A stretch of 37,845 nucleotides of DNA, taken from contig NW_003129871.1 of the NCBI RefSeq assembly GCF_000003605.2, positions 122,456 through 160,300 of the forward strand. The letters are read 5' to 3'. Both the position numbers and the translations under genes were made by a program. Of the stretch, positions 6,001-37,845 are shown one piece after another; the first letter of the stretch is position 1, and every line of letters starts with the position of its first letter. Source of the DNA: Saccoglossus kowalevskii (Eukaryota; Hemichordata; Enteropneusta; Harrimaniidae). Below the pieces are notes generated by a model. That model had not been told where the DNA came from, made no database searches, and saw only the letters and a list, made by a program, of their open reading frames with translations.

Positions 6001-9000
6001 CCTGTGTGTGCTCCCTCTTGTTAATTTTTTATAGTAAACCCCCTGTCAAACCTAACACTGCATGTTTGGTGATCTGGGGAGAATTTAACCTAATTTTTAC
6101 TGCTGAGTGACTGAGGGATTCTCAGTCTCTCTGGTGTGAGGCTAATCACTGAACCACACCCAGGTTAAATGAATGTTTAAACATTACCTTGCATATCCAC
6201 ACCAGTGGTCCAATGATTAAATGCAGCACACACAATAACATACAAGCCTGGTTCCAGCATTGCATCACAACCAACAAATCCCTTGACTTGTCTTCGGCAA
6301 TATGCAGCTACTTTATACATGCCGCTGGTGGACATCTGTGAGGTCTTTAACACTGTTATCATTAGATCCAGCGGACTACGGGCATTCTTTGCGGAACCTC
6401 TGATGGCACAAGTCAAATATTTTACCATAAATAACACAATTAGGACCAATGAGAATTTATGTACAGGCAGGCACATGTTCTACAATGGGTCCTACATTGG
6501 ACCTACCTTCTGGCAAAACAGAAATCTACTTATACATATATCATCTTTTTTTTAGCTTACATGTTCCATACATATTTTGATCATGTATCATGATCATATT
6601 TTTTGTATAGAAATTATTTTCACTGATTTTTGACAAGTTGAATGTAAAATATAGAAAAAAAGGTATACTCACTGGTTTTTATTTTCACTGAATCATTCCT
6701 TCAGCGAAAACGGCAAAAGTTAATTCCAAGCGAAAATACTGTGATATACTTTATTTTAGCTGGAATTAATTTTCGCTGAAAAGACTTTTTGAGTGTTTTG
6801 TATGGAATTTATTTTCACTGATTTTTGACAAGTTGAATGTAAAATATAGGAAAAAAGGTATATTCGCTGGATTTTATTTTCACTGAATCATTACTTCAGC
6901 GAAAATAGCGAAAATTAATTCCAAGCGAAAATAAAGTATTCTACAGTATTGCAATCATAGAAACAAAAAGTGTCAGGATTATGTTCATGCACAGTTATTC
7001 TCACCTCTCAGTTTCCTGAAAAAGTCCTAAATCAACCTCTGTGGGTTCATTTACTTGTAACATAGTAACCTGTAATGGACCACCAGCATAGTCTGGAAAC
7101 ACACCAGACAACCTGGCTTCTGACCAATCAGTTCTGGCTTTACAGATGTCTATGCAATCAAAGTAACTGAAATAAAGTATCGGAGTAAACTTGAATTTCA
7201 AATTGGAACCTAATTAAGATTATATAATTCTATTATTGGGATTAATAACAGGTTGCTATAGTGATTTGATTGGTTGAATTGTGAAGGTTCCTTACTTCAT
7301 CATGTCGTCCAGCGACATCCAAAATACTCCTTCTGCAGCTCCGTGTACCATCAAGGCATCTCGTAAATCCGGCGTCCACAATGGAGACTCATCAGACCAA
7401 TCTCCTTTCCATGAATAAGTGCCCCAAGGATTCCTTAATCTGATCAATCTGTATTAGTGTATAGAAAGAAAGTTATTGCATAATATGGGAATTCGAATCA
7501 CCAACAGTATACTAAATTTCAATTCACTTAAAGCAAACTGTTGTTAAAAGAAGGTGGCATCTTATGTGATCTTATGTGTTCATATGCATGTGTAGCAAAC
7601 ATGAATTCATTTACACATAATCTGAAACGATATGACTGCCAAACCATAGCCCTTTAAAGAACACAAAATAAACGTGTTGATAATAACTATTTAGACATCA
7701 TTAGACACAGAGTCAACGAAAAGGTTGATATGATCCAATAATATATGATAATAAGTACTAATAAGTACTAGTAGCTTGTAGCAAATCTATGTAGAATAAA
7801 TTTTATGATTTTGTATGCGGTATAATTTTGTTGGTATTATTTTGCTGTTCTACATCAAATTAACCAGAATGAAACAAAAAAAAACGATGCATCACATGAA
7901 TGAATCCCAGCTTTCTGACCTTATATGTGCAGCTTTCAAATATTTCCCGATGTTTGCTTGCTCACGAAATTAAAAACACAAGAATAATTAATGGTCCTAG
8001 ACTTTTCACTAGCCAAGCTGGTGGATATGCATCTGAAATGCATTGATAGTTGATTCTTTGATTGAACTGGATGAATTTAATTACTTGGAATTTCAGAGGA
8101 TCTTATTATGCTACTGTAGCTGTGTTTGACAGGTGTCCCATGCGACAAACATGCATATGCAAAATACATTGTCTGTTTACATGAAATTTGATCATGCCTT
8201 GCACACTGATTGAGATGCTCTAAAATGTTTGTTTGTTTTTTTTCAATTAGTTCAACAGACTGTGGCACTGGTGGTATATGTAAATGCTGATATAGTTGAC
8301 AGGTTAAGGTGTGAGGTGCGACTGTTATAACCCCCACACCCATCCCTGTCCCCTTATCAACACCACAGAGAAACATCATATCATGCCAGTCACAATGTCT
8401 GTCTGTTCAAATCAGGCGTTTGTGGAGAACCAGTGCATATCAAATGTGATAAAGACAAAACTTGGAGAAGAAATTAAATACTGGCTAAATATTGATATAG
8501 CTGTTTGATCCCAGTAAAGATAACGTCTAAATAAAAATGTACCAAATATAGACAAGTTTTAATACTAACAAATTCCCAGTGATAATTGACACAGCACTGC
8601 ACTAGAGTGGAAATTCCAATGAAAAAATACTTAACAAAACCAGTAACACATGGTGAGAATGAAATAATCGTTACATTTAGAATATTATATGTGTCCTTTA
8701 GATAGGTTCACTGCAAGATCCTGCATTAACCTTTTCATCACCACTCTTGCCAAAATTATTCTGTACTTTTTTCTTATATTCCTTAATAACGAACAAAATT
8801 GTCAATTTCCAATTTTCACTCAAAAGATTTAGATGTTTTTGTTCCAATCTCATGATAAATTAAATTTAAATTTGTGATGCAAACTGGTGGTGAAAAGGTT
8901 AACATGAAAATATTTTTGGGGTATTCATAATGTGCTATACATATTTGACGAGGATCAATTTTGATGAAATAAGGGTATCTCAATGTAATGATCCCCTCTC

Positions 9001-12000
9001 AATGATCGCAATGTCAATATTCAAATTCAAAACCATATCGCTCAAAATGTGCTATACACATTTGACGAGGATCAATTTTGATGAAATAAGGGTATCTCAA
9101 TGTAATGATCTCCTCTCAATGATCGCAATTTCAATATTCAAAACCATATCGCTCAAAATGTGCTATACACATTTGACGAGGATCAATTTTGATGAAATAA
9201 GGGTATCTCAATGTAATGATCTCCTCTCAATGATCGCAATTTCAATATTCAAAACCATATCGCTCAAAATGTGCTATACACATTTGACGAGGATCAATTT
9301 TGATGAAATAAGGGTATCTCAATGTAATGATCATCTCTCAATGATCGCAATTTCGATATTCAAATTCAAAACCATATCGCTCAAAATGTGCTATACACAT
9401 TTGACGAGGATCAATTTTGATGAAATAAGGGTATCTCAATGTAATGATCCCCTCTCAATGATCGCAATTTCAATATTCAAAACCATATCGCTCAAAATGT
9501 GCTATACACATTTGACGAGGATCAATTTTGATGAAATAAGGGTATCTCAATGTAACAAGTCATTGTCAATGACACGTCCCCGTTCCGTTCATATTTGAGT
9601 GACATATACATTCAAAGCAGATCATGACCGAAATGCACCTGCATATGTACAACACATTGTACTAAATCTGAACAAAATCCATCCATGCATGACTGAGATC
9701 TGGTTCCGGAATTGTGAAAATACGTGATTTTAATGCATTTTCGGTCTTAAAATGGCCATCATTCAGCTATTGTTAAGCGGATCATGAAACAAATGCACAT
9801 ATCTATTTGTGACATGATGCACCATGTGTGTGTGAAGTTTGAACTTGATCAATCCAGACATGTCTTGGATACGGATCCAGAACTGAATTCTTTAAGAAAA
9901 TGGCCGCCAGTCGGCCATTTTGAACTTGATCCGGGAAAAAAAAATGATGTGCATCAAGGTCCTATTATGTTTAATGTAAGTACCAAATTTGAATGAAATC
10001 CGTCCATGCATAACTGAGATCCGGGTTCGGAATGGTGAAAATGTGCGATTTCAATGCATTTTCGGCTTAAAGCGGCTGCCATTTGGCTATCGTTAATGGG
10101 ATCATGAAACAAATGCACATACATATTTGTGACATGATGTACTTGTGTGTGTGAAGTTTGAACTTGATCAATCCAGACATGTCTCGGATACGGATCCAGA
10201 ACTGAATTCTTTAAAACAAAATGGCCGCCAGTCGGCCATTTCGAACTTGATCCGAAAAAAAAAAATGACGTGCATCAAGGTCCTATTATGTTTAATGTAT
10301 GTACCAAATTTGAACGAAATCCGTCCATGCATAACTGAGATCCGGGTCCGGAATGGTGAAAATGTGCGATTTTGATGCATTTTCGGCCTTAAAATGGCCG
10401 CTATTCGGCTATCGTTAATCGAATCACGAAAAAAATGCATGTGCATATGTCCCATATAATGTGTGATATATGAGTGAAGTTTGAACATAATCGGTCCATG
10501 CATGTTCGAGATACAGGTGATCACGGACGGACGGACGGACGGACGGACGGACGGACGGACGCACACAGGGCAAAACATAAGTCCCCGTTTTCGGACTCCG
10601 TCCGAACGGGGACTAATGATCCCCTCTCAATGATCGCAATTTCAATATTCAAATTCAAAACCATATCGCTCAAAATGTGCTATACACATTTGACGAGGAT
10701 CAATTTTGATGAAATAAGGGTATCTCAATGTAATGATCCCCTCTCAATGATCGCAATTTCAATATTCAAAACCATATCGCTCAAAATGTGCTATACACAT
10801 TTGACGAGGATCAATTTTGATGAAATAAGGGTATCTCAATGTAAGGATCCCCTCTCAATGATTGCAATTTCAATATTCAAATTCAAAACCATATCGTTCA
10901 AATTTTTGTGACAGATGTGCGGTTCCGGCTTTTCACACAAAACGCAAAATCTTTGCAGTGAACGGAAATTCACCAATTATAAGCTAATCTCTAAAAACAA
11001 TTTCATTATACGTACAACTTTCACTGATCCTCACATGCTTACAGTGCATGGTTAAATGTAAGAGCATATACATGCATAGTAGTTTGGTTATGACTTCTAA
11101 TAACATTGCTGCAGGGACTTTGTAAGAAATAATGACCAAACAAACATAAGGAAAATGTAGAGTTCTACATGTTTACGTCAGCCATATTTTCAGTGACCTA
11201 CTTATTCAACAGAGCACGAAGAAAACATCACAAGCAATGGTGATTAAAGCAATTTCTTACCTGTGACCACATACTAGTATATCCTGCACATCCAGCACAG
11301 AGTACGCATGTCGCGGCCGTAAACCAATATCATGATAATCTTTATTGTTTACTTTCATATTACCTCCTCCACATGACGCACCCATCAGAAAACTGAAATA
11401 ATATGAAGTGATACAGAAATCAATATAATTGCACTTCATTGCCATATATGGACATTAGAACTCTTGAATTGTAATCAGAAGCCAGATTTATATTGTGAAT
11501 TACAGCACCCATTTCTTGCTACAAACTAATCGAAACAAATCCAACTTTTTTAGTGTAGCACATAGTTGTTAATGAAAATTTGACTCAATATATCTTGGCC
11601 ATGATTGGCTTGCACTTTTTACACAGGAATTTCTCAATGTGAACAGCTAAATTAGAAACCAAAAGAAAAATTGAGCTATCCAAACTAGTTTTTGAATTGC
11701 TGTAAACCATTTATTTTCACTGACATTTATATTTCACTATTTTGATGTTTTGAGCATATTCACTGTGTTTTAATCTCACAATTTTTTCAAGGAAACACTG
11801 AGTTTTATTTTTATTTTACATGTTCACAAAGATATAATTTAGGAGATGTTACTTATCAGCGAAAATAACAAAATTAAAACCAAGTGAATAATTAATGCAC
11901 TTATGAGTCTTGATGGAATTTTTCGTTGAAGAATATGTAGCGGTTTTAAATGTTCTGCATATTTACAATTTGACTTGTTATGAAGCCTTTAAAAATGCTT

Positions 12001-15000: not shown

Positions 15001-18000
15001 AAGCTTTTGTCTTTCTGTTTGGTACATTCCATGAAGAAATGTTCATCATTTTCAATTTTGATCGTGGGAACATTGCTTACAGATTCTGTCTTCTAAAGGT
15101 ATTTTGGGTTGGGTATGTCTACCCTTCTCAATTTCTAATACACGACTGCTTATTCTGAAACGAGTCATTATGATTTTATGTTTCAGATTACATAAGAGCA
15201 ATTATGGTTCAAAAGTGTACGAGTCTTTAAACTTTATATACGTTCTTAGTTTTCTATTATCACTCAACTTCCAGAACTCTACATACCTTTGTCGGATGTT
15301 TTTTATTTTACTGTGTGGTAATTTTTGAGGTATGACAGACGAGGACAAGTTTGTAATATTTTCAGAGATCATGTTTTTTACTGATGTAAACCAATTTCAA
15401 TTTTGTTGTTTTTGTTCTTCAAAAGCTTGTTTTGTAATATTACTGTCTGGTAAAGCACTAATACGATACCAGTATTTAATAAGATTTTCCTGAATATCTA
15501 CAAGTAATGGAAATTTACCAAGTTCAGCTCTGCATGCTGCATTAGAGGAGAATTTACTTACACCTAGTATTTTTTTGCAGAATTTCAAATGTAACTGATA
15601 TGATGACAGTTGAGAATGGAAGACTATCTAGGGGACAAAAACAAAACTTGTGACTCTACCTCTCAACAAAATCTTGGGGGCTATTTGAGAACATGGTACA
15701 TTGTAATTGTTCCTATTCGCAGAGCATTTCTAATAGAAGTGAATGTAAACCATTAATTTTGGACTGGAATATTCAAATATGAGTTATATTGGTTGCAGAT
15801 ATACCACTGTCATTTAAGTAAATATCTGCACTACTAACACTGTAAAATACTTTATTTTCACTTGAAGTAATTTTCGCCATTTTTGCTGAAGGAATGATTC
15901 AGTGAAAATAAAATCAAGCGAATACATCTTTTTTTTCTATATTTTACACTCAAACTTCAGTGAAAGTAAATTCCATACAAAACACCCCAAATTTCTTTTC
16001 AGTGAAAATTAATTCCAGCTAAAATAAAGTATTTCACAGTAGAGCAAACACCATCAAGGTCAACTGTCGCACACATGAAACTAAAAAAAAATAGTATCAT
16101 TGCATATCACTCTACATATATAGATATCAAAATTGCATCTTATTTATTTTAAAAATCCTGGATACAAATGATATTAATTTATTATTAATAAATATTTATT
16201 GTAAATGTAAAAAACATTGTAAAATGCTGAAAAACCTTAATTGCTTTTGAAATTAGATCGTTATCAACGAGAATCACCTAGAAGGGATGATAACACCAGT
16301 TAAGCTGATTCCATCTACTGGACTTTGGAACAGTTCTGTTAAGAATAATTTGGTAGTCAGCTACCTTGCTCACAAGTCCAAACACAGCCCTGATGCAGTG
16401 TAGTATATGCAGACAAGAATAAATTCTATAGAACAACTGTTTTCATAATGAGTGCTGTTATGCAATTAAATATCAGAAAGCAGAATAAACATCAAATAAA
16501 TTAGATGAAATATTCCAAAATAGCAAAAACGTCCAGACAATTTCTGTACATGAACAAATGTGATACATCTTTATCTAAGGCATCTATTTCTTGTTTGTAC
16601 ACGAATTTCCCAAAATATTCAGCTCAGAATGGTAATTGAGACAAAATACCAAAATTATTTGAGAAAAAAATGAAAATTGACTCAAATTGTGTCTGTTGGC
16701 TCCAAAATTAGGGTTCATTTCCAGAAATATTGCAAAAATAAAAAAAAAAAAGTGCTGAAAATTTTTGGACGAGAAAGTCTGGTAGTGAAGTAATTAAGTT
16801 CATTTAATTGACTTCTCTGGAGAGTCCTTTTGTTGTTGTGGGTCACTATTACCACCACCTAAGTTGGCAACATGAACACACGGCCTGTTTTTTTAAAATG
16901 AACAGCAAAAATGCTAACTCACCAGCAATTACCCAGGATTCCCTGCGAGATATCTGATGGAAAGGGAGTGCGGAAGACAGCCCACGGTGTTTTCATTTCA
17001 CTTCTAGTTGAACAAGATATTTCTGTAGGTCTCAACCACTGACATACTCTAGTTTCACCACGTTCTTCAGGATTATAGTAGAGAGACTTGGGTGTGGGTC
17101 GAAACGAATCATCCACAAATGGAATTTTTTCCTATATGAAAACAATAACACCATATATACATGAGAGTTCAGATATTTTACGTTTAACACATGTTTTATT
17201 TAACATCTTCACATAGATGACCCTTATCTATTCACATTATAAATATAGACACACTAGCCCTCACAAAGTTCAATTAATTTTCCTTAGTTGCCATTGGCAA
17301 CCAAATTCAAACTGCTGGTGGCCAACTGGTAAATTAGGTAGCCAAAGACAAAATTGTTGATTGCCAGAATGTATTATGTTTTACGGTTGTATAATAAAAT
17401 ACACAGAAAAACTAATTATGTTAAAATTCAGTTATTTCATATGCAATGTCCCATGTATAAATTTTGGCCAACACTAATTCACTGACAGGATGAGATCCAC
17501 TTTTAGTCACATTTAATTGCATAATCTTATTAGTATTATACATCTATTTCCTCCTTGTAGTAATAATGCAATGTGAGATAGCCGCCTAAAATGTTGACGA
17601 AAAATCATTTTGTGCTGTTTGCGCTCAACGACGAGATTCTATTTCTGCCACTCGCTATATCGCATAATAATGCGGGTAACAAACGTTAAAGGGCAATGGT
17701 CATCATGCGCAAGATACGAGTCTCACATGGCGACTTTGACTGACTGTTGTGTAGACTGATGAGTACAAACTAAACTGTTACCAAGCTTCAATTAGGTATT
17801 TTTTAAGATGATTGGAAGGTATCAAAAGAGTCGTAAACGGTAATTGGTGTAAGTCCTGCCAGGGTCAAAACTCATACTTGTGATTTCATTAGAAAAAGCG
17901 CATTGGATTGTGGGAAAATCAATATTTATCAACATAAATCTCACACTTCACGGCGCGGCGACCACCACCATTTACTTTGACAAATAACACAAGTGGCAAA

Positions 18001-21000
18001 ATAATAGTGTACATGAGCTGTGAGTTACCTGTGAGCAGAAACCAATGATTTTGGAAAATCTCTCCCAGGCACTTTCCTCATCATTCTTTCTCTTGGATTC
18101 AGCAACAATGCTTTTCGACGTATATTTGTAGATAAACCATCAGATTCCACATCTTTTGTATCAGCAGGGTCATAGTCACACAAAACACACTTTGAACTTT
18201 TAGTAGAGTTTTCCAGAGTACATCGCGGACAGTCCCACTTCTTACCAATAGGAGCTGCTGTTGTTGCTATCGATGTGGAGGCAGTTGGAGTTGTTGGTGA
18301 AAGATTGACAGTGGGGAGAAAATCAGGATGCGGGGCCTGACACATACAGCATACGTTGACAAGATTGGTGTTGTGATAGGTACAAACAGGACAAGGCCAC
18401 TCATTGGAAAGTGGCGTTAGCGGTGTTGTAGCATTTGATGTGGCATTCACAATTCCACAAGCAGCGCATTCTTTGGCATCATCAACATTCATGACTGTGC
18501 AAGCTTTGCATTTCCAGGTTTTTATTCTCACAGCATTCACTCGTGCAATCTTTCCACCTGGAGATTTGGGTATAAATTTAACAGATTCTCGTGTGAGATC
18601 AATAGTCGCTGAATCCTCGTCACTCTCCTCCAGTAAATTGTGATCAGTGCATTGCTTACTATCTGACATATTATTCAGTGCATTATCCAGCATGCGTTCA
18701 TTTTTACACGAACCTACATCAAAATCCATTTCTGACGTGCCTTTATGTTCACTTAAAACATTATTCGAGTTTTCAATGTCCACATCTATTACAGAGGGAG
18801 TTTGACATGTTGATGGAATTTTCAACTTGGCTATTCTAGGAGCTTTACACACTTTGCATGCTTTGCCGCTGTATTTTCCCTTGTTTTTGTGAGAACAACT
18901 AGCACATGTCCAGAAGGCCGCCTGAGAGTTATTAGTTGCACTTTGCTTTGTTTGAAGGCTAGACGCAGGCTTCAGAAAGAAGTCTCTACATCATCTTTTG
19001 TGAGATTGACTAATGTGCTAGCAGTTTCAACCACTGGTTCAATGTCAGATGGTATAACCACAGGCTCAGTCGCATTTTTCAATTCCTGCTTAGGCTTTAT
19101 AGCCTTCAATCTTCTGGTCGGGAGTACTTCATCAGTCGGTTTAACTATAATTTCTTTTGGTCGCTTAGGTGATTTAACAATAGGTGATGTTTTCTGTGCA
19201 TTTCCAAAACGATCAATGTTTTTCGTAGGTTCATTTGACAACCGAATTGAGTCTATTGAAAGCTGAGGTAATGATGACAGTTTTCTGGGAGCTTCACACA
19301 CACTGCACGATTTTTCATTATTAGCATTCTCCAATGTGCATCGCTTGCATTTCCAAGTACCCGTAGTATCGTCTGTAAAATTATGTTTAGTATTGTCTAA
19401 GACAGATGGGATAATGTTATGCTTAGAGGAGTCTGTCTTACCTTCCTCTGAGTCTGCAACCAAATCAACTTCCATTGGTTCAGGTGTTGGGGATGAACCA
19501 TTCTGAGTGACTTGGTTCACGTTCCTCTGTGTTTCACACATGTGACAGACAGTAGAGGCTAGTGGATTGGCAAATGTACAATGCACACAATTCCAGTTAG
19601 ATTCATTTGATGCCATGTTTGGTTTTACGTCGCACTTCGTAGCATCTGGTACGTTGATGTCTGCTTTTTTATTCTGGTTCTTTACAGTACCATTTCTGTC
19701 CAAAGTGAGAGAGAAAGACATCATGCCAATCTTAACTACAGTATATGCAATAAGTTAAAATCTCTGAAATCTGATTCACACTTCCCAGGCAGGATATTGT
19801 TAGTCAGTATCCTTTGCATACATGCTGCTCCCTCCCTTTCCATGTACACTCACACATTTTCACATTTTCCAGGAAATACATTTGGCTACATGTATTCACA
19901 CCCCCGGATTTGATCTCTTCCTAGCCTTTACGAATAAAGTTGAATGAATGTTGTGGGCATTCACAAGACAGATATCAACAGAAAAAGAAACAATTTGGGG
20001 GTCAAGTAGTACCGGTACCGGGGTATACTGTTTAAAGGCAGAGGTAACTCCAGTATAGCCTAATCATAGCAAAGTTAAACACAATTAAATTTACAATGGA
20101 GAATAAAAGGTAGACTAATAATGTAAACAATGTTGTCCAAAGCATTTAGTATTAGATTACCATAGACACCATTGTGGAAAGTGGTGGAGAACCAACTATT
20201 GTAAATAGATTTTTTTCAGGTGGAATTAATTTTCTCTTCAGTGATGCTTTATGGGCAATCAATACAGATTTGGGAAATAATACATCAAAATGTAATCCGA
20301 AACTTTCCCACTTATCATGTAGTCAATTTATTTGTAAACAAAGTATTGTATGCATGATATCCTATCTACCATAGTGTAAGGAGCTGTGGATGTGTCTTTG
20401 TATTGGAGTCTTATTCTGTATACAGCAGTGAGATGTCAGGGGAAGCATGGAATAGAAAAAATTATGTAAAGTTATTCGACTACTTGAAACCTCGGGCTGT
20501 TCAGGAAATATTTCGGCAATTCGATCCTAATTTTTAATATTTAAAGAGCAAAGTTCGTGACGTCATAATCGATAAGGGTCCCATGCGAGTGCACAACATG
20601 GTAAAACAAATTTACATGAGATTCGTACCGGTGCTGAGTGACCACCGCCGCCCTGTATCTAACTAGTATAAACACGAAATCAACTTTTTAGAAGTGTTTA
20701 CACTAGCGAATCAGAGCCGGAATTCGTTTCAGTTTCGTGTCATCGTGGACGTAATCGTGCCCTCATTTGGCGTTTCGTTTTCGGTAATTAGGAAGACAGG
20801 TCCCAACAAGTTGTCAACATTGATGCCACGAAAACGGAACACCCACACATGTCCCAGATCACAAAGGTGATACTTACTCATTCAGTGTTCCCGAATCAAC
20901 ATGGTCACGACGTCGCCCACATGCAAAACATATCCCTTCACTGCCATTGTTCTTTGTCAGGCATACGTCACAGTCCCAAATTAACAACACCTCATCACGG

Positions 21001-21143
21001 TCATTTGCATCCGGTTCTGGCGTGCAATTTTCAGCTCTCGGCCCCGGTCTGGGCGCACCACAGACAATGCATTCGTTTACCCCAGACTCGTTTTGTAACG
21101 TACACGATTCACATACCCAGGGCCGGGGAAATAGTATTCCCAT
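2868..21143 (-). CDS. CAPN15: Calpain-15 (small optic lobes homologue), gene span
   Basis: This is a non-classical, intracellular calpain cysteine protease with N-terminal zinc fingers. Fourteen coding exons were joined by splice sites and phase: 21143-20878, 19695-18990, 18921-18029, 17131-16923, 13790-13607, 12898-12754, 12188-12110, 11392-11261, 7448-7296, 7166-7005, 6399-6188, 4762-4608, 3705-3527 and 3039-2868. They encode about 1215 residues: eight W-x-C-x2-C...C-x2-C fingers, then the CysPc core ([25 protein letters not shown]), then a C-terminal SOL-homology region ending GLHSVRPL, which matches the vertebrate C terminus as I recall it. Phases agree at every junction from exon 4 to exon 14. 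Exon 3 ends in phase 2 but exon 4 opens in phase 0, so at least one small exon between them is missing from this model. Human CAPN15 is about 1086 residues with five fingers and fly SOL is near 1600, so this protein is finger-rich. The family call is very secure; the 5' end and the exon 2/3 junction are less so. Confidence 0.95.
3168..3270 (+). repeat. Dispersed repeat R, copy 1
   Basis: The signature is TGCATCTCTAACAGAAGCGCA followed about 60 bp later by CTTATTTTAACCACAGACACA. Related copies lie near 4215, 15720 and, reversed, near 34320. It is non-coding, in the intron between exons 13 and 14. Confidence 0.5.
3527..3705 (-). CDS. CAPN15: Calpain-15 exon 13: SOL-homology region
   Basis: Acceptor CATTTCAG at 3706. 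It encodes [20 protein letters not shown], then [17 protein letters not shown] and TDSVPPLH. These blocks are almost identical in vertebrate calpain-15. Donor CACAG|GTAACT at 3526, phase 2. Confidence 0.97.
4215..4335 (+). repeat. Dispersed repeat R, copy 2
   Basis: CACATCGCTAACAGAAGTGCA followed by AACTTATTTTACTCATAGACA, diverged from copy 1 at 3168. It lies in the intron between calpain-15 exons 12 and 13. Confidence 0.45.
4608..4762 (-). CDS. CAPN15: Calpain-15 exon 12: SOL-homology region
   Basis: Acceptor GATTTTCAG at 4763, phase 1. The exon encodes [15 protein letters not shown] and [18 protein letters not shown], corresponding to the vertebrate segment with YSSRLVMVEP and the LADAI helix. 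Donor GAG|GTTAGT at 4607, phase 0. Confidence 0.93.
4763..6187 (-). other. Calpain-15 intron with repeat fragments
   Basis: 4924-4990 matches 12355-12420 (TATTGCAC...CATCCTACC...GAAATGC). 5249-5292 is a fragment of the fold-back element at 12573-12712. No exon is seen in the rest. Confidence 0.5.
6188..6399 (-). CDS. CAPN15: Calpain-15 exon 11: SOL-homology region
   Basis: Acceptor GCCATCAG at 6400; one base completes Arg. It encodes [33 protein letters not shown] and [12 protein letters not shown]. CDxMLEPGxYxxVCxAFNHW is a calpain-15 C-terminal signature. Donor G|GTAATG at 6187, phase 1. The overlapping plus-strand open frame is only a shadow of this exon. Confidence 0.96.
6600..6735. mobile_element. 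Family B MITE, truncated copy
   Basis: The sequence repeats the last two thirds of the neighbouring full copy (TTATTTTCACTGATTTTTGAC and CCAAGCGAAAATA) and joins it directly. It may be a tandem or self-insertion remnant. Confidence 0.6.
6736..6952. mobile_element. Family B MITE, full copy
   Basis: Terminal inverted repeats of about 28 bp: left AATACTGTGATATACTTTAT, right ending GTATTCTACAGTATT. Internal motifs CGCTGAAAA and AAATTCCAnGCGAAAA are shared with copies at 15838 and 27719. It is non-coding, in the intron between exons 10 and 11. Confidence 0.75.
7005..7166 (-). CDS. CAPN15: Calpain-15 exon 10: core/SOH boundary
   Basis: Acceptor TTATTTCAG at 7167. It encodes [19 protein letters not shown] followed by a beta-rich stretch ending GLFQETE. 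YFDxxDICK marks the end of the CysPc domain and DWSEARLSG opens the SOL-homology region. Donor AG|GTGAGA at 7004, phase 2. Confidence 0.97.
7296..7448 (-). CDS. CAPN15: Calpain-15 exon 9: catalytic Asn
   Basis: Acceptor AATACAG at 7449. It encodes [38 protein letters not shown] and SLDDMM. Asn of RNPWG is the third member of the catalytic triad; the Trp after it is also conserved. [12 protein letters not shown] is the usual end of the protease core. Donor AA|GTAAGG at 7295, phase 2. Confidence 0.98.
8726..8902. mobile_element. Family A MITE, best-preserved copy
   Basis: 177 bp bounded by TTAACCTTTTCATCACCA (8726-8743) and TGGTGGTGAAAAGGTTAA (8885-8902), an almost perfect inverted pair with TTAA at each end. 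It sits about 25 bp from the start of the satellite. Confidence 0.75.
8926..9575. repeat. 111/117-bp satellite, left block (about six units)
   Basis: The units read CTATACACATTTGACGAGG ... GGGTATCTCAATGTAATGAT ... AAACCATATCGCTCAAAATG. Unit length is 111 bp, or 117 bp when a 6-bp AAATTC duplication is present. Both are multiples of three and there is no stop in one frame, so the block reads as a 222-codon frame of near-identical repeats. I see no promoter, splice signal or protein similarity and treat it as non-coding. The last unit (about 9551-9575) is diverged. It lies in the calpain-15 intron between exons 8 and 9. Confidence 0.85.
9576..10613 (+). mobile_element. Pearl/Helentron-like non-autonomous element inserted in the satellite
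   Basis: 1038 bp bounded by the perfect inverted ends GTCCCCGTTC (9576-9585) and GAACGGGGAC (10604-10613). It contains core repeats: CCATGCAT-anchored units start at 9683, 10004 and 10325 (321-bp spacing, apparently dimers of roughly 160 bp) with a partial unit at 10496. Then comes an (ACGG)n microsatellite (about 10525-10561) and a terminal stem-loop (10580-10614). Satellite units flank it on both sides, so it inserted after the array formed. It has no coding capacity. Confidence 0.72.
10525..10561 (+). repeat. (GGAC)n microsatellite
   Basis: About nine units of GGAC just before the terminal hairpin of the pearl-like element; such a tetranucleotide tract at this position is characteristic of that element type. 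Confidence 0.9.
10614..10900. repeat. 111/117-bp satellite, right block (about 2.5 units)
   Basis: It resumes with TAATGATCCCCTCTCAATGA, in the same orientation as the left block, and ends near AACCATATCGTTCAAA. It is the continuation of the array split by the element at 9576-10613. Confidence 0.85.
11261..11392 (-). CDS. CAPN15: Calpain-15 exon 8: catalytic His
   Basis: Acceptor TTATTTCAG at 11393. The exon encodes [14 protein letters not shown] and [15 protein letters not shown]. The His of [11 protein letters not shown] is the catalytic histidine. Donor CACAG|GTAAGA at 11260, phase 2. The intron that follows in the gene (11260-7449) is the longest, 3.8 kb, and holds the satellite and the inserted pearl-like element. 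Confidence 0.98.
11700..11910. repeat. Possible decayed Family B copy
   Basis: CTGTAAACCATTTATTTTCA at the left and CAGCGAAAATAACAAAATTA near the right recall Family B, but most of the sequence has diverged. It lies in the intron between exons 7 and 8. Confidence 0.3.
12110..12188 (-). CDS. CAPN15: Calpain-15 exon 7: protease core
   Basis: A 79-nt exon after a CCCTTTAG acceptor, encoding [20 protein letters not shown] and SSKEAG. The [14 protein letters not shown] block is typical of calpain-15. Donor GG|GTAAGT at 12109, phase 2. Both junction phases agree with the neighbouring exons. Confidence 0.96.
12573..12712. mobile_element. Fold-back MITE with about 48-bp arms
   Basis: The left arm AAGGTTACTATGAGGATACC (from 12578) and the following AAAGTATGCAC and CAGACAGTACA blocks reappear reversed at 12661-12708. 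A fragment of the same family is at 5249-5292. It starts about 40 bp past the exon 6 donor. Confidence 0.7.
12754..12898 (-). CDS. CAPN15: Calpain-15 exon 6: protease core
   Basis: Phase 0 start after GTATAG. It reads [20 protein letters not shown], then [19 protein letters not shown] and PCESLPLH. The LWVPLIEKA helix and EGLATLTG turn are conserved calpain core elements. The donor is CATT|GTAAGT at 12753, phase 1. A fold-back element lies only about 40 bp downstream of this donor. Confidence 0.97.
12899..13606 (-). other. Calpain-15 intron, no feature seen
   Basis: This intron lies between exons 5 and 6. I see no exon, repeat or RNA gene in it. Confidence 0.4.
13607..13790 (-). CDS. CAPN15: Calpain-15 exon 5: protease core PC1
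   Basis: The first base completes the Trp codon of GNCW. The exon then reads [26 protein letters not shown] and [10 protein letters not shown]. This is the conserved first protease half around the catalytic helix and the following beta strands. Acceptor GACTAG at 13791 and donor CAG|GTATGT at 13606 are both good, and the exon ends in phase 0. The intron to exon 4 is 3.1 kb and packed with repeats. Confidence 0.97.
14219..14419. mobile_element. Family A MITE, abutting another insertion
   Basis: CCTTTTCACCACCA (14223-14236) is the perfect inverse of TGGTGGTGAAAAGG (14402-14415). The left flank is TTAG (mutated TTAA) and the right TTAA (14416-14419) is also the left TTAA of the next element. 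Confidence 0.75.
14416..14708. mobile_element. Family C MITE, TTAA-flanked
   Basis: 293 bp with perfect 17-bp inverted ends TTAAAGCGCGGTAGTCG (14416-14432) and CGACTACCGCGCTTTAA (14692-14708). Taking TTAA as the target duplication, the element proper starts AGCGCGG. A TTAA target is typical of piggyBac-type transposases. A diverged copy lies at 17686-17973. Confidence 0.8.
14850..15625 (-). pseudogene. Non-LTR retrotransposon 3' remnant (post-RT C-terminal region)
   Basis: Minus-strand frames reconstruct, in order, the C-terminal part common in invertebrate non-LTR retrotransposon ORF2 proteins. First [20 protein letters not shown] and ELGKFPLL...LIKYWYRI (about 15620-15400), then [14 protein letters not shown] and [12 protein letters not shown], then a zinc-knuckle-like RICKQCS...EHFFMEC, then [19 protein letters not shown] near 14860. 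Stops and frame changes separate the pieces, and the reverse transcriptase itself is absent, as expected of a 5'-truncated, decayed copy. It lies in a calpain-15 intron in the same orientation as the gene. Confidence 0.75.
15720..15825 (+). repeat. Dispersed repeat R, copy 3
   Basis: GAGCATTTCTAATAGAAGTG followed by ATGAGTTATATTGGTTGCAG and ACTGTCATTTAAG, a diverged relative of the copies at 3168 and 4215. It abuts a Family B element. Confidence 0.4.
15838..16041. mobile_element. Family B MITE, reversed copy
   Basis: CACTGTAAAATACTTTATTT at the left and TAAAGTATTTCACAGTA at the right are inverted ends. The inner sequence is the reverse of the copy at 6736-6952. Confidence 0.72.
16570..16797. 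repeat. Decayed Family A relative
   Basis: The interior (ATGAAAATTGACTCAAATTG, TGTTGGCTCCAAAA) and the right end TCTGGTAGTGAAGTAATTAA resemble Family A copies at 2583 and 14219. The left end is not identifiable. Confidence 0.4.
16923..17131 (-). CDS. CAPN15: Calpain-15 exon 4: start of protease core, catalytic Cys
   Basis: The exon starts after CATATAG in phase 0 and reads [10 protein letters not shown], the family entry motif before the protease core. It continues with [11 protein letters not shown] and [12 protein letters not shown]. The Gln of QG would form the oxyanion hole and the Cys of GNCW is the nucleophile; both are present, so the enzyme looks active. The donor GTGAGT at 16922 splits the Trp codon (phase 2). 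The preceding exon end (18029) is in phase 2, so a small linking exon is unplaced. Confidence 0.96.
17686..17973. mobile_element. Family C MITE, diverged copy
   Basis: It begins TTAAAGGGCAATGGTC and shares long stretches with 14416-14708, including TGGCGACTTTGACTG, CTCATACTTGTGATTTC and GCATTGGATTGTGGGAAAAT. The right end GACCACCACCATTTA is a degraded inverse of the left. It lies in the intron where the missing calpain-15 exon should be. Confidence 0.65.
18029..18921 (-). CDS. CAPN15: Calpain-15 exon 3: zinc fingers 5 to 8
   Basis: The acceptor CTCTCAG ends at 18922, preceded by ACTAATAAC, a good branch-point sequence. Finger 5 (residues 328-349, WTCASC...CKVC) has two extra residues between the Cys pairs. 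Fingers 6-8 follow at 460-479 (WKCKAC...CAAC), 499-518 ([10 protein letters not shown]...CCMC) and 553-572 ([10 protein letters not shown]...CVLC). The linker between fingers 5 and 6 is acidic and Ser-rich and contains VIDVDI (368-373) and EESDED followed by ATIDLT (ending 434), both SUMO-interacting-like. The rest of the linkers are Thr/Pro/Ser-rich and probably disordered. The donor CAG|GTAACT at 18028 is strong and leaves phase 2. Confidence 0.85.
18922..18989 (-). other. Proposed 68-nt intron between calpain-15 exons 2 and 3
   Basis: The finger-4 frame hits TGA at 18974-18972 and the finger-5 frame is offset by one base. An intron from GTAGAG (18989) to CTCTCAG (18922) restores the frame in phase 0 and has an ACTAATAAC branch-point-like sequence. 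The donor is weak. A one-base assembly error is the alternative. Confidence 0.5.
18990..19695 (-). CDS. CAPN15: Calpain-15 exon 2: zinc fingers 3 and 4
   Basis: The exon opens after a strong pyrimidine tract and CAG at 19697-19696, phase 2, which joins exon 1 without a stop. A CTGTAG acceptor further upstream would create one. Finger 3 (residues 123-142) is WNCVHCTF...CHMC; its TF pair plus Met is the ubiquitin-contact signature known from NPL4-type NZF fingers. Finger 4 (203-222) is [10 protein letters not shown]...CSVC. Between them lies [12 protein letters not shown], which resembles a SUMO-interacting motif. A further possible intron (19441-19373, 69 nt) lies inside. The 3' boundary is inferred: the frame meets a stop at 18974-18972, so a short intron with a weak donor at 18989 is proposed. 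Confidence 0.8.
19373..19441 (-). other. Possible 69-nt in-frame intron (exitron-like) in calpain-15 exon 2
   Basis: GAAG|GTAAGACAG at 19441 is a strong donor and TTTTACAG at 19380-19373 a good acceptor, both in phase 1. Removal of exactly 23 codons keeps the frame and leaves fingers 3 and 4 intact, shortening only their linker. Retention also keeps the frame open. It may be a constitutive short intron or an alternatively retained one. Confidence 0.45.
19696..20877 (-). other. Calpain-15 intron 1, no feature seen
   Basis: No exon or repeat is recognised. The CTGTAG acceptor-like site upstream of the chosen one would create a stop if joined to exon 1. Confidence 0.5.
20878..21143 (-). CDS. 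CAPN15: Calpain-15 exon 1: start codon, zinc fingers 1 and 2
   Basis: This exon encodes two RanBP2-type fingers: residues 9-28 (WVCESC...CIVC) and 56-75 (WDCDVC...CFAC). The first has the usual CT dipeptide and Asn; the second has CLTKN instead of CTxxN. I chose the ATG at 21143 because it has A at -3 and G at +4. An in-frame ATG at 21224 is in a poor context (T at -3) and would add 27 residues. The donor is GTAAGT at 20877, leaving phase 2. The upstream region faces the GAB gene. Confidence 0.82.
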
Positions 21144-21224
21144 ACTACGCCATTGTCGGTCGAAACAATCAAGATTTGCAGGAGAATAACCTTTGCTTAG
21201 GCTATAGCAAACAACAACATACAC

Positions 21225-21862
21225 TCGGCAATAAGCTTACTTCCTGTCGCTTGTTAACCAAACTTACTTTATAACCACGTTTCTCATTGGTCGAATATTA
21301 ATAAACTTATTTCCGGAAGTTGAATTTTTACCGTTGTTGATATGTTTTCACTGAATATATAATGACAGTCTATACAACAAATAGTTTACTCTCGTTTGCC
21401 TGATACATAGCTATAAAAACAGTATAATATAATTTACGTTTTCGAAGCCAGGTAGAAGTAAACAAATTGAACGACTACCGGGAACGCCCACCAGCGTCCG
21501 CCCAATCAACTACTGTCTCACCTTGGAGAGCGACTTTACATTTTTAGTAAATATTTTCGTTAACAATTAAATACAACTTTTAAAAAATTGTATATGAATA
21601 TATAATTAATGAGATATAATTATTTCAAAAGTCGAATTATTATAAATGAAGGCCAAGAGGTAACAAGTAATAGCACCATCATTATGTCGAATAACGCTGC
21701 TGTGATCGACGAGATAGCGTCGGCCATTAAAATAATAACCCACGCAACTCTTACTTGCAAGTTTGAGACCATAGTTGATTTCCGTCTGCAAAAACAAGCT
21801 TTAGACTCATCACGACTATCCATGTTTCCTGAAGATAATACAACCCGATAGTCCAAGTAGTG
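21225..21862. promoter_or_regulatory. Divergent intergenic region, probable bidirectional promoter
   Basis: Only about 640 bp separate the 5'-most in-frame calpain-15 ATG (minus) from the GAB ATG (plus), so both promoters and 5' UTRs must lie here unless there are distant non-coding exons. I see no clear TATA box with a defined start site. A short plus-strand open frame (21609-21851) stops 11 bp before the GAB ATG and could act as an upstream ORF if transcribed; it has no recognisable protein features. Confidence 0.6.
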
Positions 21863-21928
21863 ATGGCGGACGTCGTATGTACAGGGTGGCTAAAAAAATC
21901 GCCACCCGCCACTAAAATGTCGATCTGG
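21863..21928 (+). CDS. GAB-family exon 1
   Basis: Twenty-two codons from an ATG with G at -3 and +4, reading VVCTGWLKKSPP, the first PH strand of GAB proteins. The exon ends in Trp, and the donor TGG|GTATGT at 21929 leaves phase 0. The position of this intron, just after the KSPP motif, agrees with my recollection of vertebrate GAB genes. Confidence 0.93.
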
Positions 21929-24900
21929 GTATGTATAAAGTTTGCAATACTTTATTCGTAAATATTCGTGAGTGTTGTGTTTCTTGAAGTGCTGTACGTT
22001 AAATAGCGACAATGTAAACTGCAATGTAGTTATAATGTAAATACTTGTCATAACATTCCATAACGTTCATGTTCGTGAGTTCAAGCTCCGTGTAATTACT
22101 GTGAGTGTAATTGTTTTTCATCAATAACTAGTCTGGGGCTTCAATGACGAACTCGACTGTCTCAGTGTCTATGGATCTGTTTTTCATCAGCTTGTTTCGT
22201 CTTTTTTTCATGTGTTCATACACCCACCCGCCATTTTTTTTGCTCGATCCCGTTATTGTTACGTTGTTTTATTACAAGTATATTGCTTTTTCGAACCACC
22301 CCTCGAAGAAAATAACGTCCAAGACTCCTTCGATCACGACACATGTGACGTAATACAATATCCTTTGAACATAATTCGCTCCGCAGTTCTTGTCATATTT
22401 GACCTTTTACGCCCGTGTTTACGGTTCACGTTGTGGTATTCATTTCATCCCTTGACGCATTCGCAATTTGACAGCTGACCCCAGGTCTACATGTTTCCTT
22501 CTTATTTTTTGTAGTGTAAATGTCTGTGATCCATGTTGCGCATGTTTGTGTTGCTGTAGCGAACAATTTACATCGTCCATGACGGCGTTTCTTTTTTTCT
22601 TTTCCATGTAACTCATTTGGACTTTGCTGCTAAAAATAAACACGGTCGTGCTGATCTTCCCACGATTGATTCTTGACATTGGCTTCATTTATGCTGCATT
22701 TTTCACTGCAGGGAGTGCCTATAGCCTCATGTACATCCTGGGGTCAGGTTAGTTCTGTTGCCCCTTCACTTCTTTGATGTTGCCAACAAAAATTAACATC
22801 ACAAGCGTAATATGTGCACTAATGTAAACTAATATGTTGTCTTGTGCACAGTAATTTATTGTGGTGTCATTATTGGTAATTTATAATGTGGATGATGTGC
22901 ATTTATTCAACACTTCAGCATGTTTACAAGTTCTGTAATACAAGTTAATAATAATTTACATGAGATACATCCTTGATTGCACTTGTGAAGCCCTGTGGTG
23001 TGAATGGTTATTACTATTTGTATGCCAGTACACATATTGTTATGCTAATGATTCACCATTGACAGTGAAGCTAGTTTTGTCTAACCGCATCCAGTTCAGC
23101 ATTAAATCATCATTAAGTGCATAACATCTATAATCAGATTTCCATAACTATTATTAAAGGAGACCACATATTCTGGTTAAAAAAAAAAAAAACGTGTCTT
23201 CATTTTTATCCGTGATTCTTTTAATGCAAATGAGTACTGCAGATTCAAACCCTTGTGGTGCTGATATTGTTGGTGGCTGTAGTGATTCATTGTGTACCTA
23301 TTGATGACTTCTTGACATCAAAAAGCTAGTATGTATTTATTATGCGTTATCATTTACCGCATCTCATGATTTGTTTTAAAGATGTACAGAATGATTTTTT
23401 GATTCTTAAAATAATAATTGTGGACTCGCTTCTTAAAATTATACTGCAATCTCTGTATGTTTACAGCTTTTATTAATGATAGGTAGACCTTGCATCATCA
23501 TTGGCTGCATCAGTAGTACTAAAACATTGAATGTAATGCTGTTTACAAACAGTATGTTATAGCCCCTGTAAATGTCACCACTTAATCTCTATTCCCCTTT
23601 TTTGCCATCATTGCTGATAATATAAACAGTGTGAAATGCACATTAACACATTTGCAAGAGCTACATTTAATTAATTCCTAGGTATGTTGACACACACATG
23701 TAATTGTTAACGAGATTCAATTTGTCCAGGGTGCCAAATCATTTGATAATGTAGATTACCCGGTAACCAATGGTAACGCTTAGCATGATAAAATATCAAA
23801 TAGCATTCATAAAAGAAAAATATGAAAACCATATTCTATTAGATGTGCATCTCCAAAAGTCAAAAAGTTTTTATGTTTTAATAGTTATACCAGTACATGT
23901 GTTAAAATAGTTGCTTGTTCACTTCAAAGGCTTCATGTTGTAAACAAATTTATAACCAGTCTTCACAATAGTTTCCCGGAAATTGTCTTATCACTAATTA
24001 CAAAAGAGAACTATTACTTTGTATCTGCAAGAAAACGAACATCGATAAATAGAGTATAAAATGGGCTTTTTAAAAATCAAGAATGTAGCAAAAGAGACAG
24101 GGCACAAACTCTTATGCACACGTTGTAAATGTATAACTATTGGACCAAATTCTACAATATTAACTTTGTAATTCATCAATGTCTGTGCATGTTCTCCTTT
24201 GCTTTGAACATCTTGTTTAATTTCCCAACCATAATAATGTAATAAACCTTTAAAGTCAAACACTTGAATCATAATCACTAACACAACAATTTTACTCTCA
24301 AAAGGGGGTGCCACTGTTTTTAGATTTAATGCATTAGTGAAAACTACATTGTACCAAATACATAGAATTGAAAATATGATTAAGAATGGACAGTGTAGAA
24401 GTTACTTAAAATGTGGAAATTATAAAAGCACTACAAATTTTGCTGCGTGAAAATGGAAAACAATGTCTTCGGCTTCTATTTGGGTTTAAAAATGTTAATT
24501 TCAAAATGGCTGAACACTAGGAATTATTCAGTTTCACGAAATTCTTGTCCGCAAAAGTGTTTTAGCTTGGACAGTCCTTGCATTGTAATTCCTGTAAGGA
24601 ATCTTCAACTAGTGAAGAAGCTAAGTCTTGTCTATCTTTGAAGACCCTGTGATACATTATATGATAGTAATACTATATTTCCGTTGAATTCCCATTAGAC
24701 AGCAAAAAATAATTATATTTCAAAATTGCCAGCTGCCATACTCTTGTAGCTTCATCCATTTTCTTAATGTAATATTATTCATATCTTTCTATCCGGAGGC
24801 CCTAGGTTTATAAGAGTGTCATATCCATATGTTGACGATTATAATATTTCATTATGAGTGAGTCGAAACATCCCCAGGCATTTCTGATCTGTTATTTGTC

Positions 24901-27718: not shown

Positions 27719-27907
27719 ACTGTGGAATACTTTATTTTCGCTGAAAAGGCTTTTTGGGCGTTTTGTATGGAATTTATTTTCACTGATTTTTTGGCGAGTT
27801 TAATGTGAAATATAGGAAAAAAAGTATATTCGCTGGATTTTATTTTCACGAAATCATCCCTTCAGCGAAAATAAATTCCAAGCGAAAATAAAGTATTCTA
27901 CAGTATT
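27719..27907. mobile_element. Family B MITE, plus-oriented copy
   Basis: ACTGTGGAATACTTTATTTT at the left, AAATAAAGTATTCTACAGTA at the right, and an interior nearly identical to 6736-6952. The high similarity between the copies suggests fairly recent activity. Confidence 0.78.
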
Positions 27908-35652: not shown

Positions 35653-36756
35653 ACCAAGAGTATAAGAACAAAGTTTTTTGTGTTTGTTGTTATACATATA
35701 TGTATGTGACTTGTTTTAATAAAACCACGGTTGTTGAATGTTCCATAGGAGATTGTGATCTAGTACTGATCTATACATGTAATTTTTGTCAGCCATGCTC
35801 TTTTTGGTTGGCAATAAATTACGTCACTGTCTGCTTGCTTGCTTATATCGTTTATTTCTTGAAGACATTTGATTCTGACTGACAAATGACAATTAATATA
35901 GCGATCAACTTATTTATAGATTCTCAAATCACGTAAAAGTAACAGCAAAGTAGCACAGTTGGAATTTTAAATGATTTTATCATCTAATGCGCATTGTCCT
36001 CATGTGATTCTTTTCGTACATGGTACCATGTTCTATGACTATTATCGGTTTTATTTTTAGTAACAAGCTCTCGTAATCGGGACAAACGCTATTACGGTAT
36101 TACCCCGGGCACGCGCCCAGGGGCCTGAACATACAAAATCGGGAAAAATTGGGGGTGGGCGCTTACCCGAGGACCACCCCAAAAAAGATTTTAAAAAGTT
36201 GTTTTTGGGATCGTATGATAAGGTCAAATAAAGGAATGCTTCGTACACTTTGTACACGTACTTATTTCTTGATTTATGCGAGGTTTCAATAAACGTGAGA
36301 CTCGGTCAAGAACTGTGGGAACACTAAGACACAGGGTCGAATTTCAAGAATAAAACTTGTTTTATGTCAGCGAATGAAGTTGTATTACTCACTGAAATTG
36401 GCTACAAAGTATGGTAAGTATTGTAATCAATGCAAGGTTACATTTTTAGTAACCGTGATCAGTGCAAGTCGAAACTGCCGGGAAAAACTACCGCTTGTAA
36501 TCCAAGATGGCGATGACCTCATTAGCATAATTTTGTTCACGCACGTATTGATACATCGTATCGTAATTACTGAAGAATAGCAGACAGGGTTATGAAACAA
36601 ATAAACGTTTTATTACTGATGTGAAATGTTTACAAACTATTGTAAATACATAAACATATCCAAATGGCGATACATAAAAAACAGACTGAAAATAAACTCT
36701 GGTCGACCTCATTAACATGATTTATTCACACACCCACACACATGACAAAATTATGA

Positions 36757-37080
36757 TGCAACAAGTTCCCATCGTCGGCATGCCTCATTTATGGTTATCG
36801 TAATGGACTTGAGGTCGGCAAAATGTTTTTTCTTCAACGACAGAAAAATTATCCACATGACCGTAATGCCATAGCTGTGATGAAGGATGGAAAGAAAGTA
36901 GCAAGTTTACGACGTGATGTCTCAAAAGTGCTAGCTCCCGTTCGCAGTCAGCTGGCACCGGTGTCGCTGGGTGTATATGATAAAGGGAAGTTGTGCAACC
37001 CAAATTTGCCGAGTTCGCAGTTTTTCGCCAATAAAAAAATAACTAAGGCAAAAACTCATGGTATTTCAGCATTTTTGTAA
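36757..37080 (+). pseudogene. HIRAN-like domain reading frame within the inverted repeat
   Basis: Between a TGA at 36754 and a TAA ending at 37080 one frame reads IYGYRNGLEVGKMFFLQRQ, then NYPHDRNAIAVMKDGKKVA and LRRDVSKVLAPV. This follows the HIRAN pattern: Gly-Tyr strand, L.R...N.hD.NAI.V, G..V, lPR..s..La. HIRAN domains bind DNA ends in helicases such as HLTF and also occur in many uncharacterised marine-invertebrate proteins. After about residue 70 the similarity is lost. There is no convincing start codon, so it is probably a captured or decayed fragment, or one exon of a longer gene. Confidence 0.55.
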
Positions 37081-37370
37081 TAAAGAAATTATTCTCTATC
37101 AATAATCCGCCCAAAACAGGAACATTCCTACTAATTCTTGTGTTTTTTCGACGCTTTTTGAAAAACCTGCGATTAGGCTGCGAAAGTAGAACATTCCGGA
37201 GGGGATGAAACGGAAGAGCCAAACTTAACGCGTAAAAATAGAACGCGTATTTTGACCTCTACGTGGCCAACCAATGGCTGGACACGGATACGTTTGCGGT
37301 CGTTGCCAAAAAGCCCCGCGTCCATTGCCTGGCGATGCTCTTCCGTTTCACCCCCTGTGGAATGTTCTAA

Positions 37371-37505
37371 TGACTATGAACGGGAGCTAGCACTTTTGAG
37401 ACATCACATCGTAAACTTGCTACTTTCTTTCCATCCTTCATCACAGCTATGGCATTACCGTCATGTGGATTATTTTTCTGTCGTTGAAGAAAAACCCTCA
37501 AGTCC
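37371..37505 (-). pseudogene. Second, frameshifted HIRAN-like copy in the right arm
   Basis: The inverse copy of 36810-36950. Relative to the left arm it lacks 11 bases around the LEVGK codons, which breaks the frame. It retains the DNA for NAIAVMKDGKKVA. This shows that the right arm is not under selection as coding sequence. Confidence 0.55.
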
Positions 37506-37845
37506 ATTACGATAACCATAATGAGGCATGCCGACGATGGGAACTTGTTGCATCATAATTTTGTCTTGTGTGTGGGTGCATGAATAAATCATGTTAATGA
37601 GGTCGACCAGAGTTTATTTTCAGTCTGTTTTTTATGTATCGCCATTTGGATATGTTTATGTATTCACAATAGTTTGTAAACATTTCACATCAGTAATAAA
37701 AGGTTTATTTGTTTTATAACCCTGTCTGCTATTCTTCAGTAATTACGATGCGATGTATTAATACGTGCGTGAACATAATTATGCTAATAGGTCATCGTCT
37801 TCTTGGATTACAAGCGGTTGTTTTTTCCCGGCCGTTTCGACTTGC

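Follow-up and report, generated by a model that had tools for sequence, protein, structure and literature searches.

A palindrome whose two arms each carry the remains of a HIRAN-type coding sequence was found at one end of a 37,845-nt stretch of Saccoglossus kowalevskii DNA (NW_003129871.1, positions 122,456-160,300 of the forward strand, assembly GCF_000003605.2), which is referred to here as the window. The palindromic stretch, at 36464-37845 of the window, is probably ordinary, being the remains of either a fold-back mobile element or an inverted duplication. Ranked likeliest, with about an even chance of being correct, is an origin as a mobile element of the fold-back type that has decayed and is non-autonomous; both HIRAN copies are relics.

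The window as a whole has a G+C content of 34.8% and contains one gap of 120 N, away from the palindrome. Pfam matches elsewhere in the window fall into two regions:

13.5-21.2 kb, minus strand: RanBP-type zinc-finger frames and a calpain fragment
26.0-26.3 kb, plus strand: PH-domain frame

We take the genes concerned to resemble calpain-15 and GAB, respectively. Tandem arrays were observed at 8925-9555, 9659-10439 and 10614-10881; in this region (8925-10881) two arrays of 111-bp units (5.6 and 2.4 copies), overlapped by the long open frames 8930-9598 and 10474-10911, flank an array of 321-bp units.

Structure of the palindrome

Self-comparison by blastn and an alignment of the arms, together with the analysis of the core, distinguished the following parts:

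36464-36950, plus strand: left arm
36951-37186, no strand assigned: left-only segment of 236 nt between the left arm and the left inner repeat, its right-arm counterpart probably deleted
37187-37219, plus strand: left copy of the inner inverted repeat, beginning with TA (30 of 33 positions matching)
37220-37336, no strand assigned: centre (loop) of 117 nt, not common to the arms
37337-37369, minus strand: right copy of the inner inverted repeat (30 of 33 positions matching)
37371-37845, minus strand: right arm, reaching the last base of the window

The two arms lie in opposite orientation, are at least 487 nt (left) and 475 nt (right) long and are separated by 420 nt. Their identity of 93.4% over 488 alignment columns (blastn E 0.0) agrees with the initial annotation, which had described inverted arms of nearly 490 bp. 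Between the arms there are 19 substitutions in 474 ungapped sites (about 4%), comprising 10 transitions and 9 transversions, as well as three gaps of one base, one of them at 36788, and one gap of 11 bases. In a single-strand DNA fold of -599 kcal/mol, a value that has no shuffle control at this length, the outer arms pair along their length and the inner repeat pairs separately. The symmetry of the span 36464-37845 is evident, whereas its left boundary is not: since the right arm continues up to the window edge, position 36464 only mirrors that edge and does not mark a demonstrated end of an element. The true arm may be longer.

Tandem subrepeats are frequent, though not universal, in the arms of fold-back elements. 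No tandem array was detected in 36464-37845 at a score threshold of 50, and the arms therefore lack this feature of fold-back elements; the stretch does contain a 30-nt direct repeat (83% identity, copies 190 nt apart, E 0.15). No other copy of the arm was found by blastn within the 37.8 kb window. A different, dispersed repeat was noted at 6635-6950, 15836-16041 and 27731-27907, where comparison of the window with its own minus strand gave several inverted pairs of 79-91% identity, and is perhaps an older short mobile element. Directly left of the palindrome, an 11-base direct repeat found nowhere else in the window (36054-36064 and 36443-36453) encloses 378 nt, perhaps as the target duplication produced by some other insertion.

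The inner repeat is well above chance expectation. Among 500 randomisations of the core no local score exceeded 25, against 51 for the repeat, and 100 randomisations gave at most 26 matches in 33 positions, against 30, both sets being first-order Markov draws and not exact dinucleotide shuffles. The second inverted repeat claimed by the initial annotation is therefore real, but it is colinear with the outer repeat. Its distance to the outer arm is one base on the right and 236 nt on the left. The simplest history is that outer and inner repeats belong to the same palindrome, whose left arm measures at least 756 nt and whose centre measures 117 nt, and that about 236 nt have been lost on the right. 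A single alignment bridging the 236-nt gap was not chosen by the aligner (gap cost of about 59 against a gain of 51), so the one-palindrome reading rests on the order of the parts, the one-base spacing and the significance of the inner repeat itself. The opposite event, an insertion of the 236 nt into the left arm, was set aside since inspection by eye revealed no target duplication at the borders of the segment.

The inner repeat begins with TA at both sides, and the G+C content of 37187-37369 is 51.4%, compared with 37.5-38.6% in the arms and the left-only core. Given these two features, it could instead belong to a separate small terminal-repeat element. They also favour a history in which two copies of a HIRAN-bearing element inserted facing each other, with an unrelated, TA-flanked terminal-repeat element of 183 bp (37187-37369) between them. 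This history is unlikely, as it makes the single base between the right inner repeat and the right arm a coincidence and the second outer ends that it calls for are not visible.

Also quite unlikely is an assembly artefact, in which two alleles, or a fold-back read, would have been linked in inverse orientation at the end of a contig. The palindrome lies exactly at the end of the window, the record has its 120-N gap elsewhere, and 4% substitutions could separate the alleles of a marine animal with high variability. An artefact fits poorly with arms that differ by substitutions, by small indels and, if there is one palindrome, by an indel of 236 nt, and the unshared 117-nt centre joins the arms without a gap.

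HIRAN relics in the arms

Three frames in the arms bear on the HIRAN assignment:

36757-37080, plus strand: stop-free left-arm frame with similarity to HIRAN (Pfam PF08797; matched stretch 36799-36948)
37373-37495, minus strand: right-arm HIRAN piece of 41 residues (residues 1-39 matching profile positions 26-65)
37471-37556, minus strand: right-arm frame with the start of the HIRAN-type open reading frame (28 aa), broken by the 11-base gap and with no Pfam match on its own

The initial annotation had recognized a HIRAN-like segment in each arm from motif pattern, and comparison with PF08797 bore this out. The left frame matched with 29.9 bits (E 4.9e-7, residues 15-64) against a cut-off of 24.7, and the right piece reached 24.9 bits (E 1.8e-5), barely above that cut-off. 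Coverage of the 96 profile positions is partial in both cases (17-67 for the left, 26-65 for the right), and the left frame scores 23.4 bits, below the cut-off, when begun at the ATG at 36823. Five of the six PDB sequence matches of the left frame were HIRAN chains of HLTF (E 0.0034-0.0045), the sixth being an unrelated ribosomal protein (E 1.3); these back the HIRAN call more weakly than Pfam does. A single-sequence structure model had a mean pLDDT of 46.4, too poor for comparison with the beta-barrel fold. The openness of the left frame over 107 codons was considered as evidence for a gene and rejected, given that 489 of 2000 Markov randomisations of 36464-37370 contained an equally long stop-free frame on either strand. 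Searches with both pieces by tblastn (E up to 1) found no HIRAN-like sequence in the window outside the two arms.

Neither copy is intact. When the arms are aligned, a single additional base is present at 36788 on the left, and 11 bases (36814-36824 of the left arm) are missing on the right. In the left arm the first residues of the domain lie in another frame and the remainder is read in the frame 36757-37080, while the right arm keeps the beginning of the domain in register and loses the frame thereafter. The two copies had been described as one intact and one frameshifted; in fact both are broken, at different places (36788 and 36814-36824). The suggestion of a working DNA-end-binding domain within a fold-back structure is likewise unsupported, both copies being frameshifted and drifted, and no HIRAN product is expected here.

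Past the gap in the right arm, all five of the codons that differ between the arms change the amino acid, the first of them adjoining the gap. In the PDB alignment, one of the changed codons falls on the second asparagine of the HLTF stretch DPNNPYD. Residues N90 and N91 of the HLTF HIRAN domain were mutated in work described in the available part of PMC4666394, and the asparagine pair of DPNNPYD is presumably this pair. The differences between the arms and the non-synonymous codons fit drift without selection, although the numbers are small and prove no more than that.

Origin of the palindrome

Under the fold-back reading, both arms would go back to the 5' portion of a gene coding for a protein with a HIRAN domain at its start, each arm comprising about 290 nt of upstream DNA followed by the start of the coding frame, both pointing inwards. 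An inverted duplication would have created the palindrome, and the subsequent loss of about 236 nt on the right would have given the inner repeat its separate appearance. The unit may have been moved by the transposase of another element binding its two outer ends, with the HIRAN piece as a passenger that came either from a parent element by descent or from a host gene by capture.

This reading is supported by the long arms with a short centre that pair along their length in the DNA fold, by the HIRAN match in both arms and the drift-like differences between them, by a CpG content unlike that of most of the surroundings, and by the existence of published fold-back elements with very long repeats and no remaining transposase. 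Counting against it are the lack of a transposase match to Pfam in the five frames of the stretch that were scanned, short of all six reading frames, the lack of another arm copy in the window, of a tandem array in the arms and of any visible target duplication or outer end, and the position of the gene piece inside the repeats, where Pack-MULEs have it between them.

The CpG observed/expected ratio of the stretch is 1.17, compared with a mean of 0.60 over 351 segments of the same size from the rest of the window. Eleven of these 351 segments are as high, and the best six of the eleven start at 20.5-21.3 kb. The high ratio suggests that this DNA has been in place for less time than most of its surroundings or differs from them in origin, although it could instead result from local methylation. 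The CpG-rich region at 20501-22682 (ratio up to 1.35) surrounds the most upstream of the scanned minus-strand zinc-finger frames (20874-21224) and is perhaps a promoter CpG island.

A one-off, non-mobile inverted duplication affecting the beginning of a HIRAN gene or gene relic, through template switching or hairpin repair, was ranked second and is doubtful. It would account for a palindrome with a short centre and for the lack of further copies within the window, and a plain inverted duplication would look identical to a fold-back element. Less readily explained are the CpG ratio, higher than in most of the surroundings and suggestive of incoming DNA, and the tblastn result, which gave no source gene in the window outside the arms, though such a gene could lie beyond it.

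A more far-reaching proposal is an animal fold-back family whose two long inverted ends each encode a HIRAN protein, and in whose intact members HIRAN would bind the transposition hairpin or free 3' ends and so aid the element's own movement; this we regard as very improbable. If the arms recur in the genome, each with a HIRAN start, this would suggest a transposon family that employs a DNA-end-binding domain. A lone relic would have little importance beyond annotation.

Comparison with known systems

The HIRAN domain of HLTF (PDB 4xzf and others) is similar to residues 18-77 of the left frame, including the conserved aspartate-asparagine stretch. The present sequence differs in being a frameshifted fragment, with no helicase or RING part seen alongside it. 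No system combining HIRAN with a transposon was found in the titles and abstract openings of the open papers retrieved, which is no proof of absence; HIRAN does not occur in the available main text of PMC3537659 and, in the available part of PMC5512222, occurs within the reference list alone.

Mutator-like elements and Pack-MULEs resemble the palindrome in having terminal repeats of more than 100 bp, and non-autonomous Mutator-like copies may hold fragments of host genes (PMC5225508, available part). In Pack-MULEs, however, it is the region between the terminal repeats that holds the captured fragments, whereas the gene piece here is inside the repeats, and Mutator-like elements have an 8-10 bp target duplication and a transposase, whereas the five scanned frames gave no transposase match (compared with the same part of PMC5225508). 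The same source also assigns Muta1, an active element with long repeats, to the fold-back class.

Fold-back elements with very long inverted repeats from which the transposase has gone are described in the available part of PMC4079207. Three differences separate Tetris, a fold-back element of Drosophila virilis, from the palindrome, as far as the same text goes. Its arms contain tandem repeats of about 220 bp, whereas no tandem array was found in the arms here; its copies are without conserved open reading frames and that text mentions no gene piece, whereas each arm here has the start of a HIRAN gene; and its target duplication is 8-10 bp, whereas the right end of the palindrome lies beyond the window. 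In its very long inverted repeats, short middle and lack of an intact transposase, Tetris is like the palindrome described here.
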